Assembly: GCF_937951745.1 (NCBI RefSeq)
Contig: NZ_CALFBQ010000035.1
Coordinates: 1 to 34,172, forward strand
Length of the DNA: 34,172 nt
Source: an uncultured Chloroflexus sp.
GTDB taxonomy: Bacteria; Chloroflexota; Chloroflexia; Chloroflexales; Chloroflexaceae
Direction: 5' to 3'
The notes under the pieces were generated by a model, which saw only the letters and a list, made by a program, of their open reading frames with translations, did no database searches and was not told the DNA's origin. The position numbers and the translations under genes were made by a program. This document shows, one piece after another, positions 7,413 through 19,459 of this stretch; position 1 is the first letter of the stretch; each line of letters opens with the position of its first letter.

Positions 7413-8579
7413 TTAGATTGGTACCGGCACGAACGGCGTTGTACACGGCACATGCGCCGCGACGTGCATCGTCTGCGCCGCCAGATCGATAATCACGCCA
7501 CACACACTCTCGGTGCGGTCAACCGCCGCAATTCGCGGATCGGGATGGCGGCAGATACAGCGCGGCGCACCCTCGTGGTCGCGCAGAATGTTCTCTAACA
7601 CCGTGCGATCTATCTGACCAGCCGCAGCCTGTAGCAGTTCCCATGCCCGTCCATATCGCTCGCGACTTGTAGACGTTGGCTCTAAGGCGCACTCGCCAGC
7701 CGCTGTACCGGCATCGAGACAGTGATTGGCATGGGCCAGTAGCCCTGCGCGTGCCAGTATCTCAGCGACTCCCTCTGGGGTGATTTCCAGCGCCAACAGT
7801 TCGCCGCCGGCGCCGGCCAGTGTAATGCACGACGAACCGCTAGCCGGAATGTGCTCGGCTAGTTGGCGGGCCGCCGCGACACTGGTCGTTTGCAACATCT
7901 GGCGCAACAACACATGCACTGGCATCCCCTGCCGCTGGCCGTCGGCCCGCGAACGCAACAGATTCAAGCCCACCGCAACGCCGGCTCCATTCAACCCGAT
8001 CTTCGCCACCATCCCTGCTTCGGTCAAGGTCAAGATCGGCGGCTGATCGGGGCTGATGATTCGCAACAGTATGCACGCCGCCCGCTGATCACCCTGCCAA
8101 TCCCACGTCTGTGCCAGCCATACCCCGCCGTTCGCAGTAGCCGGCGGTGCAGCAGCGGCAGTCGTACATTCGCCGTCATCCCCGGCTGCGTCGCGTGTCA
8201 TCGCCGGTTGTTCAATGTGTTGCGGCACGCCAGCAGCCCGATTACGGGCGAGTGCTGCTGCCGCAGCAGGATGATGCACCCCGACCCCCACCCCGGCCAG
8301 CAACTCGGTGCGTACATTGAGGGCAATAATTTCAGCGAGGGTACGCCCGGCACCGACGGCAATGCCGCGCATCTCGTCGAGCAGATCAGGGGCATGCTCG
8401 CGCAGAAGTGGTTCGTAAGCCAACGCCTCACTTTGGGCCGCCTCCCAATCTAACCCGCGACGGTAGGCAAACAGGCGGGCATAGCTGGCAATGCTATGCC
8501 GAATCTGTGCAGCAGTGACAGCGCCGTACTGCCGACCACGCTCAAACGGCTCGCCGGTGATGGTGATGGATGGGAACAC
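7413..8579 (-). CDS. C45-family autoproteolytic acyltransferase/hydrolase
   Basis: This 388-residue protein resembles the isopenicillin N acyltransferase / peptidase C45 group of Ntn hydrolases, which cleave themselves before an active Cys and then act on amide bonds. The N-terminal pro-region contains GEPFERGRQYG and LNVRTELL. The likely nucleophile is Cys138 in GECTT, followed by VWLAQTWDWQ, typical of the new beta-subunit start. An Ala-rich stretch (about 101-135) before the Cys looks like an insertion. The start codon is a GTG with AAGGAAGG about 6 bases upstream. It follows the PIN-like gene by 18 bases and is probably last in that transcript. The substrate is unknown. Confidence 0.85.
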   Translation of the reverse strand: MFPSITITGEPFERGRQYGAVTAAQIRHSIASYARLFAYRRGLDWEAAQSEALAYEPLLREHAPDLLDEMRGIAVGAGRTLAEIIALNVRTELLAGVGVGVHHPAAAAALARNRAAGVPQHIEQPAMTRDAAGDDGECTTAAAAPPATANGGVWLAQTWDWQGDQRAACILLRIISPDQPPILTLTEAGMVAKIGLNGAGVAVGLNLLRSRADGQRQGMPVHVLLRQMLQTTSVAAARQLAEHIPASGSSCITLAGAGGELLALEITPEGVAEILARAGLLAHANHCLDAGTAAGECALEPTSTSRERYGRAWELLQAAAGQIDRTVLENILRDHEGAPRCICRHPDPRIAAVDRTESVCGVIIDLAAQTMHVAAHVPCTTPFVPVPI

Positions 8580-8597: not shown

Positions 8598-9101
8598 TCA
8601 GACATCGGCAGCAAATTGTTGCCCGTTGCAAATATTCTCGATTGTTACGTGATGGGTAGCAAGCGCTGCTTGATACCTTACCCAGTCACTATCTACTGCA
8701 TTGATTATCGGTGGATGATCGGGATGCGCAATAGCTACTGCCACATACTTGTGATCTGACCGATCAAATTGGGCAAGATCCGGGTCATCGGGGAATTCGG
8801 CGAATTCGCGACCGTTATTGCTCGGTGTGATCGAAACGATGGTGCATATCTCAGGGTTGAAAGCGTTACTCCAAAGCCACTTAAAAAAGGCGTCGCCGAC
8901 ACCGGGCTGACCTCTCGCCGACAGGTGCCTGCGATATTCTTGCAATATGGACTGTAACGTATCAAGGGCAACCCGCTGTTTTGCTTGAATGAGCCGTAAT
9001 CTGGTAATACAAGCCAATTGGCACGCTTGACTTGCCTGTGCAGCCCTGCCGTTTGCTGTGATGGCAACGTTCACATCAACAATGACAGTTTGCTGTCTCA
9101 T
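8598..9101 (-). CDS. PIN-like domain nuclease, partner of the adjacent AAA ATPase
   Basis: The 167-residue protein has a PIN-fold acidic pattern: Asp9 in VIVDVNVAITANG, Glu55 in SILQEYRRHL, Asp113/Asp116 in FDRSDHKYVAVAIAH, and Asp137/Asp139 in INAVDSDWV. These would bind metal for RNA or DNA cleavage, as in VapC-like and other PIN nucleases. It starts inside the stop of the ATPase gene (ATGA overlap at 9098-9101), which strongly suggests translational coupling and a shared complex. There is no antitoxin-like gene next to it, so a classical VapBC pair is unlikely. The gene shares the lower GC look of the ATPase gene. The PIN call rests on motif spacing, not on a search. Confidence 0.75.
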   Translation of the reverse strand: MRQQTVIVDVNVAITANGRAAQASQACQLACITRLRLIQAKQRVALDTLQSILQEYRRHLSARGQPGVGDAFFKWLWSNAFNPEICTIVSITPSNNGREFAEFPDDPDLAQFDRSDHKYVAVAIAHPDHPPIINAVDSDWVRYQAALATHHVTIENICNGQQFAADV

Positions 9102-10447
9102 GCACTACCTAGTTGTCGTGTCAGCATAGCTTCCTGCATTGCCGCAATGTCGCCAAACTCATCGCCAAAAAAGTTTTCCGGCCAGTTGGTGATGTTTCCG
9201 TACTGGTCAAGCTGCAACGGTTGCAACTGTGAGATACCTGACTTATCGGTGGTACAGAAATAGAGCGCTGCCTCACTTGAGTCTAATGTTCCCTCAGCAA
9301 TTCGGCGCTGAAGACGGCGCAAGAGATGTTCACTGTGGCTTTCGAGAATGATCTGAATCTGACGAGTACGAATGGCATCAATTAAGACATCGGCTAATCC
9401 CGCTTGCACACTGGGGTGCAGATGCGTTTCAGGCTGTTCAAGAATGATGGTTGCACCTTTCGGTGCGTAGTAGCATAACACGATCACCGGTAGAATCTGC
9501 GAAATACCAAAACCGACATCAGTTATCAGAACATCGGGGCTGCCCGGTGTTAGTTTGACTGATACTTCATACATCTCGTTGCGAGGATAGGGGAAAGGAT
9601 GGATTGAAAAATGATGTGCGAGACCTAGCTCTTTTAGCCATTGTGCTACCTTTTCTTCAAGACTTTCGCCTGAATAATGCTCCGCCTTACTCTTCCGAGC
9701 TGCAAGCAATGCGGCAATAGCTAATTCGCCACGCTGACCAACATCTTGTGGCCGTTGACCACTCCATACGTAAGTGCGCTTGGGGTACTCGCGTAGTGGG
9801 CCAAGGTACCAGATATGTTGGCCCAACTTCTCAAATGCAAGCACGAACTCTTTTAGAAAGTTGGCATTCTGATAGGACGCAAACACCTCACTGGGAAAGC
9901 CATAACATTTTATCGGGGCAGGAAAGGTAGTAGAACGGTTGTGAATAGGCTTGAGATCGTATCCTTTAATAAGCAGGTTGTACTTTTGCTCTGCTTCTTG
10001 CTCCATGCCAAACTGGTACTGGTGCGATCCAATAGAGAATGAATATGTAAACCGCTTAACAGTAATGCTGTCTCTTAGGTCTTGTATAGTAGTTGAAAAG
10101 TTCAATTTTTTGATCGAGCGCTGTGGATGGGATGTTTGATCGGGTTCTGGGATGTACACCTCTTGGATCGGGTGCCATTCGATAGATATTGTGATTCCGC
10201 TAGATATACGATGTGCGTGAATGATATCGAAAAATGTACCTAGATTGACATAGGTGTGTTCATGACCTGTTTGCAATACCTGTTGTTGATCGGAGGATTC
10301 GACTGTCTGTTTGAGGAGCAGCAAGAGCTGAAGGATCGCTGTCTTGCCAGAACTGTTGGGGCCGAACAGACCGGTGATCGGTGCCATTCGGATTGGCCCA
10401 GTATCCCGCCAAGATTTGAAATTCTCAGCCGCTACCTCTGTGATCAT
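9098..10447 (-). CDS. AAA-family ATPase with C-terminal DUF3696 domain
   Basis: The start is set at ATG 10447, where GGAGG lies about 8 bases upstream, instead of a longer frame opening at 10501. The 449-residue product is an ABC/SMC-type ATPase of the OLD-like group: Walker A GPNSSGKT (29-36), signature-like VGFGISQ (311-317), Walker B IILEQPETHLHP (334-345) and a switch His in ESHSEHLL (369-376). The end carries the DUF3696 hallmark YGNITNWPENFF (about 416-427). Such ATPases are often found with nucleases in defence loci; here the partner is the overlapping PIN-like gene. The coding sequence is less GC-rich than the cysteine desulfurase upstream, which suggests transfer. The mechanism is not established. 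Confidence 0.9.
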   Translation of the reverse strand: MITEVAAENFKSWRDTGPIRMAPITGLFGPNSSGKTAILQLLLLLKQTVESSDQQQVLQTGHEHTYVNLGTFFDIIHAHRISSGITISIEWHPIQEVYIPEPDQTSHPQRSIKKLNFSTTIQDLRDSITVKRFTYSFSIGSHQYQFGMEQEAEQKYNLLIKGYDLKPIHNRSTTFPAPIKCYGFPSEVFASYQNANFLKEFVLAFEKLGQHIWYLGPLREYPKRTYVWSGQRPQDVGQRGELAIAALLAARKSKAEHYSGESLEEKVAQWLKELGLAHHFSIHPFPYPRNEMYEVSVKLTPGSPDVLITDVGFGISQILPVIVLCYYAPKGATIILEQPETHLHPSVQAGLADVLIDAIRTRQIQIILESHSEHLLRRLQRRIAEGTLDSSEAALYFCTTDKSGISQLQPLQLDQYGNITNWPENFFGDEFGDIAAMQEAMLTRQLGSA

Positions 10448-10491: not shown

Positions 10492-11658
10492 TCACCCACA
10501 CGGCGTCAACGTCCGCAGTTGACCGACCAGATCGGGCAGAACGTCAAGCAGCGTATCGATCTGCGCCTCGGTTGTCTGTCGTCCAAGCGAAAAGCGGATC
10601 GAGCCGTTGGCTTCGTGAGGTGCGAGGCCCATGGCAAGCAAGACGTGTGATGGTTCGAGCGAGCCGGAGGTGCAGGCGCTGCCTGAACTGGCGCAGATGC
10701 CGCGCTGGTCGAGCAAGAGCAGCAGGCTTTCGGTTTCGATGCCAGCAAAGCCAAGATTAACGATGCTCGGCAGGCGGTACACCCGGTCGCCGTTGAGCCA
10801 CGAGTGGGGAATTCGGGTTAGCACGCCGTCGATCAAGCGGTCGCTGAGTGCGCGCAGCCGCGTGAAATAATCTCCACGCTCGCATTCAGCGATCTCGAGC
10901 GCCTTTGCCAATCCAACGATCCCAGCAACGTTTTCAGTGCCGGCGCGCCGCCGTCGCTCTTGGGCGCCGCCGTTGATCTGTGGTACCAACGGTGTGCCGC
11001 GGCGCAGGTACAATACACCGACACCTTGCGGCCCGTAAAACTTGTGCGCCGTGAGACTAAGCAAATCGACCCCGAGCGCTTGCACGTCAAGCGGTAATTG
11101 ACCGGGTGCTTGCACTGCATCGGTATGGAATAGCACTCCTCGTTCGCGGCAGATAGCGGCTAGCTCGGCAATTGGCTGGATAATGCCGGTTTCGTTGTTG
11201 GCATACATCACCGAAACGAGCGCCGTTTCAGGTCGGATTGCCGTTGCGAGATCGGCGGGATTCACCCGTCCGCTACGATCAACTGGTAGTAACGTGACGG
11301 TAAATCCTTCGTACTCGACCAGATAATCAAGCGCGTGTAGTACGGCGTGATGCTCAATTGCACTGCCGATCAGGTGCGTTTTTCCTTGCGCCCGCAACGC
11401 CATTGCCACACCCTTGATCGCGAGATTGATACTCTCGCTGCCGCCGCTGGTAAAGACAATCTCTTTCGGCTGACACCCAAGCACTTGCGCCACCTGTTCA
11501 CGCGCATCATCAAGCGCTTGGAGCGCTGCACGTCCGACATAGTGAATGCTCGATGCGTTGCCGCTCATACCGGTCAGGAAGGGCATCATCGCCGCTAGCA
11601 CTCGCTGATCGAGTGGTGTCGTGGCGGCGTGATCGAGATAGATCAGGCGATCAATCAT
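10492..11658 (-). CDS. Cysteine desulfurase (NifS/IscS type)
   Basis: This PLP enzyme takes sulfur from cysteine, giving alanine and a persulfide for Fe-S cluster or thio-modification pathways. The 388-residue product shows YLDHAATTP near the N-terminus, EHHA (102-105) with the PLP-stacking His103, the PLP lysine Lys206 in SLTAHKFYGPQG, and the persulfide-forming Cys329 in SSGSACTSGSLEPSH. Length and motifs match the IscS/NifS class rather than SufS. It follows the csx15-like gene by 10 bases and precedes the ATPase gene by 44 bases, all on one strand. DndA/SspA of phosphorothioation systems are also in this family, but no dnd/ssp partner genes are visible, so housekeeping use is the default reading. 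Confidence 0.93.
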   Translation of the reverse strand: MIDRLIYLDHAATTPLDQRVLAAMMPFLTGMSGNASSIHYVGRAALQALDDAREQVAQVLGCQPKEIVFTSGGSESINLAIKGVAMALRAQGKTHLIGSAIEHHAVLHALDYLVEYEGFTVTLLPVDRSGRVNPADLATAIRPETALVSVMYANNETGIIQPIAELAAICRERGVLFHTDAVQAPGQLPLDVQALGVDLLSLTAHKFYGPQGVGVLYLRRGTPLVPQINGGAQERRRRAGTENVAGIVGLAKALEIAECERGDYFTRLRALSDRLIDGVLTRIPHSWLNGDRVYRLPSIVNLGFAGIETESLLLLLDQRGICASSGSACTSGSLEPSHVLLAMGLAPHEANGSIRFSLGRQTTEAQIDTLLDVLPDLVGQLRTLTPCG

Positions 11659-18698: not shown

Positions 18699-19459
18699 TT
18701 AGCGCGTGCAATAGTAAATCTCGCCGCTCTCGGCGGTCAACCCCATCCGCAGCGCCGCCTCGTGATCGGGAACCATATCAGTTACTGTTGTGACCGATAC
18801 GGTAAACCCGGCTTCGCGTAACCGATCGATATAATCGCGGCCATACTTACGCACATGATCTTCTTGCCCAAACGCAATCAGTCGTTCCTTTGGTTCAACG
18901 ATCGTGGGATCTTCAAAGGTTGTTTCAGCCATAATCGGTACCAACAAGATCGCCCAACCGGTTGGCTTGAGTGTGCGCCAAAACTCGCGTATTGCTTTGC
19001 GATCATCAGGCACGTGTTCGAGCACATGGCTGCATAAAATAACATCAAAATATTCATCAGGATATTGAATATTGGTAATATCCATTTTGACCATGACGTG
19101 GGGATCGAGTAAATCCGCAGTGAGGTAGCCTGCGCCTAACCGGCGCCGGAAGATCGGCTCAAAGCATGGTTCAGGAGCGACATGCAGAACGTTCTTGGGT
19201 TGTGCGTCAAAAAGATTGGTTCGTTTGGTGAGGTATAACCATAATAAGCGGTGGCGTTCTAACGAACCGCAATAAATGCACATCGCGCCTTTGCGCTTCG
19301 ATCTTCCGTAAGGAGCAAATGCACGCGACTCGCGTTGGCAAACGGGGCAGAAGCGACCTGTGCCACGATAACGAGGTTTCTAATCTGCTGGACTCGATTG
19401 CGCACACTGCGTAGCGGTCGCTTGATTTCTTCGGGGAGATGGCGTAGCGGGTTCGGCAT
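18699..19459 (-). CDS. Class I SAM-dependent methyltransferase with N-terminal zinc ribbon, apparent frameshift
   Basis: The methyltransferase part is intact from ATG 19283: VLHVAPEPCFEPIF (motif I region), KMDITNIQYPDEYFDVILCS, HVLEHVPDDRKAIREFWRTL and an end in SGEIYYCTR. Upstream in the same frame the sequence still codes for FCPVCQRESRAFAPYGR and MCIYCGSLERHR, a CxxC...CxxC zinc ribbon, until a TAG near 19382. The natural N-terminus MPNPLRHLPEEIKRPLRSVR (ATG 19459) lies in another frame. One extra base near 19374-19380 (AGAAACCTCG reading as AGAAACCCTCG) would join them. The full protein would be about 250 residues. The substrate is unknown; such genes often sit near glycan or glycolipid loci. 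It may be a real frameshift, with a short form still made, or an error. Confidence 0.78.

Follow-up and report, generated by a model that had tools for sequence, protein, structure and literature searches.

The window is a stretch of 34,172 nucleotides from an uncultured Chloroflexus sp. and represents a complete contig of a 4.25-Mb genome (94 contigs; 99.39% complete). Between two housekeeping genes, encoding a cysteine desulfurase and a C45-type protein, it carries a pair of overlapping genes on the minus strand:

10492 to 11658, minus strand: cysteine desulfurase, upstream flank outside the module (Aminotran_5, 6.9e-87)
9098 to 10447, minus strand: HEC-03B, a predicted DUF3696 ABC-type (OLD/Rad50-like) ATPase (PADLOC HEC-03B, 8.1e-139; Pfam; AlphaFold2 [AF2]; fold comparison)
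9098 to 9101, minus strand: 4-base stop/start overlap (ATGA) of HEC-03B and HEC-03A (sequence)
8598 to 9101, minus strand: HEC-03A, a predicted PIN-fold nuclease (PADLOC HEC-03A, 2e-41; AF2; VapC11/VapC21, Z 10.4; invariant residues)
7413 to 8579, minus strand: AAT/C45-type gene, downstream flank outside the module (PF03417, 5.5e-18)

Counted from its ATG, the ATPase has 449 amino acids (aa; an upstream GTG alternative extends it to position 10501 and 467 aa), and the small protein has 167 aa. Positions 9098 to 9101 read TCAT on the plus strand and hence ATGA on the coding strand, common to the ATPase stop and the PIN gene start. The original prediction, made from the sequence, had noticed this overlap and also the low GC content of the pair, and both are borne out. 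GC/GC3 values are 0.472/0.469 for the ATPase gene and 0.496/0.476 for the PIN gene, compared with 0.590/0.635 for the desulfurase gene and 0.630/0.648 for the C45 gene. Low GC is weak evidence by itself, since two of the 14 other window open reading frames (ORFs) are also low (0.492 and 0.524; the remainder range from 0.558 to 0.635). An ORF with low GC (0.492; GC3, 0.518) lies at 18699 to 19283.

The ATPase carries an OLD family ABC ATPase domain according to Pfam, sequence profile, and fold. Its Pfam matches are AAA_15 (1.1e-23), AAA_21 (1.2e-21), and DUF3696 (1.3e-10), in agreement with the original reading as a DUF3696 ABC ATPase. No TOPRIM family matched the ATPase in Pfam up to an E value of 1; its C-terminal residues 389 to 435 correspond to DUF3696. 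In a sequence-profile comparison, the best relative in the PDB was an OLD nuclease (6p74_A, 2.1e-11), and retron PtuA matched at 5.9e-5. The AF2 model (pLDDT 92.4, pTM 0.91) is nearest to the heads of SMC and Rad50 among solved folds (5h68_A; Z 20.9, rmsd 3.9, 297 residues aligned), and PtuA of retron and Septu complexes is also near (9vhl_D; Z 19.7, rmsd 4.0, 308 aligned). Across 52 sequences, K35 in the P-loop, E337-Q338-P339-E340, H342-L343-H344-P345, and E369-S370-H371-S372 are invariant or at least 90% conserved.

Pfam found no family in the 167-aa protein itself. PIN_3 matched 20 of 59 homologues (best, 7.6e-5), with the window protein not among them. These 59 sequences (the window protein, 57 of the best 80 relatives, and one row from a viral contig) also formed the alignment in which we looked at conservation. 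D9, N11, E55, D116, and D137 are invariant and D113 is nearly so, which upholds the PIN-type acidic pattern first read from the sequence. In the AF2 model (pLDDT 95.4, pTM 0.90), D9 follows strand 5-8, E55 lies in helix 51-59, D116 lies in helix 114-125, and D137 precedes helix 138-142. By this pattern, we assign D9, E55, D113, D116, and D137 as the putative PIN acidic active-site residues, with a predicted catalytic role. A Foldseek search of the model against the PDB gave no match at an E value of ≤0.001; the list begins at 6e-3, with PIN proteins at its head. The VIA structure comparison is led by VapC11 (6a7v_A; Z 10.4, rmsd 2.9, 123 aligned) and VapC21 (5sv2; Z 10.4, rmsd 2.8, 123 aligned), and VapC or VapBC is named in 17 of the 50 rows listed. 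Two rows at Z 8.1 to 8.2 are called cyclodehydratase RohQ. The structure prediction proposed earlier as a check thus returned a PIN fold, and HEC-03A is a predicted PIN nuclease by its modeled fold and conserved PIN-type acidic residues.

Some further features of the small protein were recorded. The first PIN motif is DVN in the window protein; its second position is T in 69 of 81 rows and V in 5. Four cysteines (C27, C31, C86, and C158) are kept in 73 to 76 of 81 aligned rows (three rows are mis-started and gapped) and could possibly form a metal site or disulfides. In two Roseiflexus-type proteins, the match is confined to residues 6 to 110 and then diverges, as if the C terminus had been lost. 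The PIN profile matched only a designed TIM barrel among PDB sequences (3.3e-5), a match dismissed as chance because it consists of four repeats of one short match.

Both proteins match models of PADLOC-DB v2.0.0 nearly end to end: PDLC04148 (HEC-03B) matches the ATPase at 8.1e-139 (residues 1-446 on 1-453 of 458), and PDLC04147 (HEC-03A) matches the small protein at 2e-41 (residues 6-160 on 3-153 of 159). The two genes are adjacent and co-oriented, as in HEC-03. These profile matches place the window pair in the already catalogued candidate family HEC-03, as a new member that stands alone. The next PADLOC models for the ATPase were NsnB (2.6e-62) and PDC-M55A (1.2e-55); the MAD3 model matched at 1.2e-11 (44.5 bits, under the model cut-off of 420). 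These three are related ATPases from models of other systems.

The name HEC stands for Hma-embedded candidate in the text available from two papers (PMC12988326, PMC10855318). HEC-06 is named among the HECs with activity, and HEC-03 is absent from the portion of that text covered (PMC12988326); in the available part of a study of rumen genomes, HEC-03 is listed as a subtype (PMC13356809). The main text of the 2022 PADLOC web-server paper has no mention of HEC (PMC9252829). In the literature searched, mention of DUF3696 was limited to a systemic sclerosis paper, PIN plus AAA15 gave nothing, and the matches listed for MAD3/MAD4 were unrelated. The original prediction knew of no described DUF3696-PIN pair. 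The pair is already described, given the PADLOC models HEC-03A and HEC-03B and the pairs of OLD-type ABC ATPases with PIN-endoRNases reported in the accessible text of a 2026 survey of BREX and BREX-related systems (PMC12839542). That text treats such pairs as likely backup suicidal effectors and names DUF499-centered (Hma) systems as one group that carries such nucleases. They share the plan of the window pair, an ABC ATPase of the OLD kind plus a PIN protein, and we infer that they are identical with HEC-03; DUF3696, HEC, and RNA ligase do not occur in the main text of the survey.

We scanned genome contigs with two patterns. Of 158 pattern matches, 147 were confirmed relatives, and the best 80 of these 147 were kept; together with one IMG/VR contig, they form a set of 81 loci picked by HEC-03A similarity. 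In all 81 loci, the gene immediately upstream, in the same orientation, encodes an HEC-03B-like ATPase; this count holds for close relatives because the loci are the best 80 by HEC-03A similarity. A 4-base overlap of the two genes is seen in 58 of 80 loci (the start is wrongly assigned in three of these 80 rows; locus L092 was left out). The adjacency of ATPase and PIN genes is more than chance. A search from the ATPase side in the family found matches at an E value of ≤0.001 in 38 of 41 genomes, mostly weak and to related ATPases. The match falls below 1e-130 in six genomes, and in G038 it comes in pieces (3.4e-43). Six of these seven genomes with HEC-03B also have HEC-03A. The exception, G036, has HEC-03B without HEC-03A on a contig that also has HmaC (L162, 1501-3146). 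The ORF in the place of HEC-03A there is presumably nucleotidyltransferase-like, and the ORF before it carries what we take to be an intein-like C-terminal motif.

The distribution of HEC-03A is patchy. The family has it in 6 of 41 genomes and the order in 11 of 82; it was found in 14 of 400 genomes in the phylum sample (the window genome is counted in each of these three sets) and in 15 of 398 genomes in the phylum sample around the gammaproteobacterial genome G082, the center included. It was found on 12 of 72,556 plasmid records, 10 of which are predicted to be conjugative or mobilizable. No relative was found at an E value of 1e-5 in a phage collection of 50,697 records, and IMG/VR gave one relative among 54 pattern matches.

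Within the genus of the window, the same site is found both empty and filled. In three congeners without HEC-03A (G006, G008, and G012), the desulfurase and C45 genes adjoin, with approximately 100 to 160 bases between the matches, and in G000, G010, and G011 the pair fills the gap. (G007 and G009 have the two flanking genes far apart.) Within this genus, the pair represents an insertion. Between G000 and G010 or G011, the flank proteins are 88 to 91% identical and the pair is 61 to 67% identical; therefore, the pair must evolve rapidly or the site has been filled on more than one occasion. The PIN tree groups the copies of G000, G010, and G011 (support 99/93), and the nearest named row to the window copy is Chloroflexus sp. 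SKYG63. For both genes, dN/dS against two congeners is 0.13 to 0.19, a rough value with dS near saturation. We consider it rather likely that the window pair is a stand-alone, horizontally acquired HEC-03 copy.

These data bear on whether the pair is a housekeeping RNA- or DNA-processing unit with no role in defense. The neighbors in the window and in Poribacteria are housekeeping genes, as such a unit would lead one to expect, and Cran1, an archaeal OLD-family ATPase, has a cell-cycle role and is apparently not a defense protein according to the available text (PMC12796447). Against this, the pair is present in only 6 of 41 family genomes and 14 of 400 in the phylum sample, congeners have empty sites, its GC is low, and it occurs on plasmids and in an Hma operon. 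A purely housekeeping role is therefore very improbable, and the outcome that would have spoken against the original prediction, homologues found only as core genes of close relatives, did not appear.

In ten poribacterial loci, the pair repeatedly lies near citrate synthase/isocitrate dehydrogenase and NIPSNAP/MutS genes (one representative per cluster was identified). The recurrence of the same housekeeping neighbors suggests long vertical keeping in Poribacteria. A restriction operon around these copies was rejected, as Pfam identified the genes as citrate synthase, isocitrate dehydrogenase, NIPSNAP, and MutS.

Defense genes adjoin the pair in some relatives. Congener G007 carries, on one strand, HmaA, HmaB, HEC-03B, HEC-03A, and HmaC (HmaA at 1.4e-148 over the part visible; HmaB and HmaC at E 0). 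When the neighbors of the 80 loci were clustered locally, an HmaB-like cluster appeared in 10 loci and an HmaC-like cluster (HEPN_Swt1 plus DUF499) in 6, one of them via a short ORF; for each cluster, one representative was identified, and the numbers are plain counts. HmaC had no match in the window genome and is present in 26 of 41 family genomes. The window copy thus differs from the HEC-03 name in being stand-alone, and embedding in an Hma locus is seen in congener G007. We take "Hma-embedded" to record how the family was discovered and not to define every copy. An Acinetobacter plasmid has genes for a helicase-related protein and an N-6 DNA methylase ahead of the pair. The defense role proposed originally is plausible in light of the HEC-03 match and the Hma neighbors of some relatives, and we infer such a role for the pair. 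A PIN nuclease, of a family other than that of HEC-03A, is among the domains newly validated in defense in the available text of a further study (PMC13092281).

Two observations on neighboring genes are recorded here. The insert in the HmaB gene of G007 was considered as an intein and rejected: it looked low-complexity, and no splice-like motif matched. AbiEii and GTPase-associated (GAAD and GASH) genes lie around an Aeromonas locus with the pair and a ligase gene (L112, 6412-14254) and form a small group of conflict genes.

In VapBC systems, the toxin is a PIN protein, and the window protein shares the fold of VapC toxins (Z 10.4, rmsd 2.8 to 2.9, 123 aligned). The pair could accordingly be imagined as a toxin-antitoxin-like addiction module, with the ATPase as antitoxin to a PIN toxin, selfish upkeep on plasmids and islands, and phage defense secondary or absent. 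The overlap of the genes and the 12 plasmid records, 10 of them predicted to be conjugative or mobilizable, would fit such a module. VapB antitoxins, however, are small DNA-binding proteins. The partner of the window PIN protein is a 449-aa ATPase, and the neighbors of the PIN gene (ATPase upstream and C45 downstream) include no VapB-type gene. An antitoxin would not need a conserved ATPase of approximately 450 aa whose P-loop and H-loop residues are invariant, and the repeated nesting beside Hma genes also argues against addiction, which we consider quite unlikely.

A third gene was found beside the pair in other lineages. In four of five plasmid loci inspected (on Tistrella, Azotobacter, Aeromonas, and Rhodococcus plasmids), HEC-03A is followed by a gene that carries an RNA ligase annotation, and three plasmid ligases tested matched PF09414 at 2.2e-33 to 1.3e-32. 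By coordinates, a ligase lies beside the pair in 9 of the 12 plasmid records, six of the 9 being closely related Aeromonas plasmids. Across 105 loci, an RNA ligase gene is directly downstream of the PIN gene in 18, is missing in 83 with at least 600 downstream bases, and could not be scored in 4 that are too short. Between the stop of the PIN gene and the first ligase codon in the alignment, the distance is -11 to 71 bases, and motif I (EEKxDG) is present in each of the 18 ligases. The ligase is present in 10 of 14 noncenter HEC-03A genomes in the phylum sample of G082 and in 0 of 27 Chloroflexota loci of the 105-locus set (22 assigned by title and 5 taken from the phylum sample). In the window genome, no PF09414 ligase was matched (4 of 41 family genomes have one). 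With neither this ligase nor HmaC there, both the RNA ligase clue and the Hma clue lie outside the window genome.

We then mapped the ligase label on a PIN tree of 104 rows (2 of 106 possible rows were dropped; the bootstrap was not settled, and five rows sit on long branches). The label changes 9 times, with at least 6 changes forced by well-supported branches, and shuffled labels gave a mean of 16.9 changes (0 of 500 shuffles were as low as 9). The association is thus clustered yet repeated. One ligase tested (L112) had no match among PADLOC models at an E value of ≤1e-10. The association of HEC-03 with a ligase was found neither in the literature searched nor in the main text of PMC12839542, and in the available text of PMC10855318 "RNA ligase" appears in a cited title only. 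As far as could be checked, the association is new.

The ligase gene following the PIN gene in 18 of 105 loci, with at least 6 label changes, points to RNA cleavage, and this argument for an RNA substrate is independent of the PIN name. The same evidence weighs against a defense pair of the same plan whose PIN protein is a DNase acting on phage or host DNA, the ligase serving a different purpose, for example, mending damage done by phage enzymes. The ATPase fold, closest to Rad50/SMC heads and PtuA, would suit a DNase; so would a VIA row from a Cas9-PcrIIC1 complex (8wmm_G, Z 9.0) and the HNH gene that takes the usual ligase position in the Acinetobacter locus. The best PIN fold rows, on the other hand, are VapC toxins, which are RNases, and the third gene, whose association recurs, encodes an RNA ligase that has motif I in all 18 cases. 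We regard a DNase as unlikely.

Our best explanation, which we hold to be reasonably likely, is that HEC-03 is a candidate anti-phage system in which the ATPase gates an RNA-cutting PIN protein, with resealing by the ligase in relatives. It builds on computed features, namely, family membership, the PIN fold and acidic residues, the near-obligate pairing, presence and absence at one site in the genus, Hma embedding in a congener, and the recurrent ligase. HEC-03B would serve as sensor and gate and keep HEC-03A inactive in a complex. Upon a phage trigger and ATP turnover, it would release or activate HEC-03A, which would cut RNA, most likely tRNA or another structured host RNA, and growth would stop before the phage matures. 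Where the third gene is present, the RNA ligase may reseal the ends, and the cell could tolerate leakage or recover. Counted against this explanation are the window genome lacking both the ligase and HmaC, the housekeeping surroundings of the window and poribacterial copies, the 83 of 105 loci without a ligase, a plasmid with an interrupted ligase, HEC-03B without HEC-03A in G036, the Foldseek result and the RohQ rows for the PIN model, and the cell-cycle role of Cran1.

The proposed mechanism resembles known ATPase-nuclease systems, a likeness to Septu and PARIS that the original prediction had rightly seen. PtuA-containing retron complexes are among the nearest folds of the ATPase, and the AriA model of PARIS matches it at 3.1e-26. 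The partners differ. PtuB is an HNH nuclease (the title of structure 9n69 names an HNH nuclease) and the effector AriB is a TOPRIM protein, whereas the window partner is a predicted PIN protein; the window ATPase also carries DUF3696. In PARIS, the sensing of a phage protein by AriA switches on a nuclease that cuts tRNA, as summarized in the accessible text of the BREX survey (PMC12839542). HEC-03 is probably an RNase gated by an ATPase on the PARIS/Septu plan, and some lineages would add repair.

As the pair itself is already a catalogued candidate, its value comes from three additions made by the comparison. HEC-03A is assigned as a PIN protein, with named residues; a single genus offers a natural experiment, its members having no copy, a stand-alone copy, or an Hma-embedded one; and an RNA ligase recurs as a partner, which opens the question of substrate to direct testing. 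Should the ligase mend the cut made by the PIN protein, one system holds both damage and cure. We tentatively propose, as a possibility that falls somewhat short of likely, that HEC-03 is an RNA-cutting suicide or dormancy system in which a Rad50/PtuA-like ATPase gates a PIN RNase and which in many lineages has its own repair ligase, gained or lost repeatedly. HEC-03 would then be a reversible abortive-infection module, and ligase-less lineages, that of the window included, would have an irreversible form or rely on another repair enzyme.

IS256 copies interrupt the ligase gene on a plasmid of Aeromonas caviae, whose ATPase and PIN proteins have the same accessions as in an intact locus. The ligase is thus not an obligatory antidote, since this plasmid keeps the pair. 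Three other plasmids that we looked at have less similar ligases beside or near AAA family ATPases.
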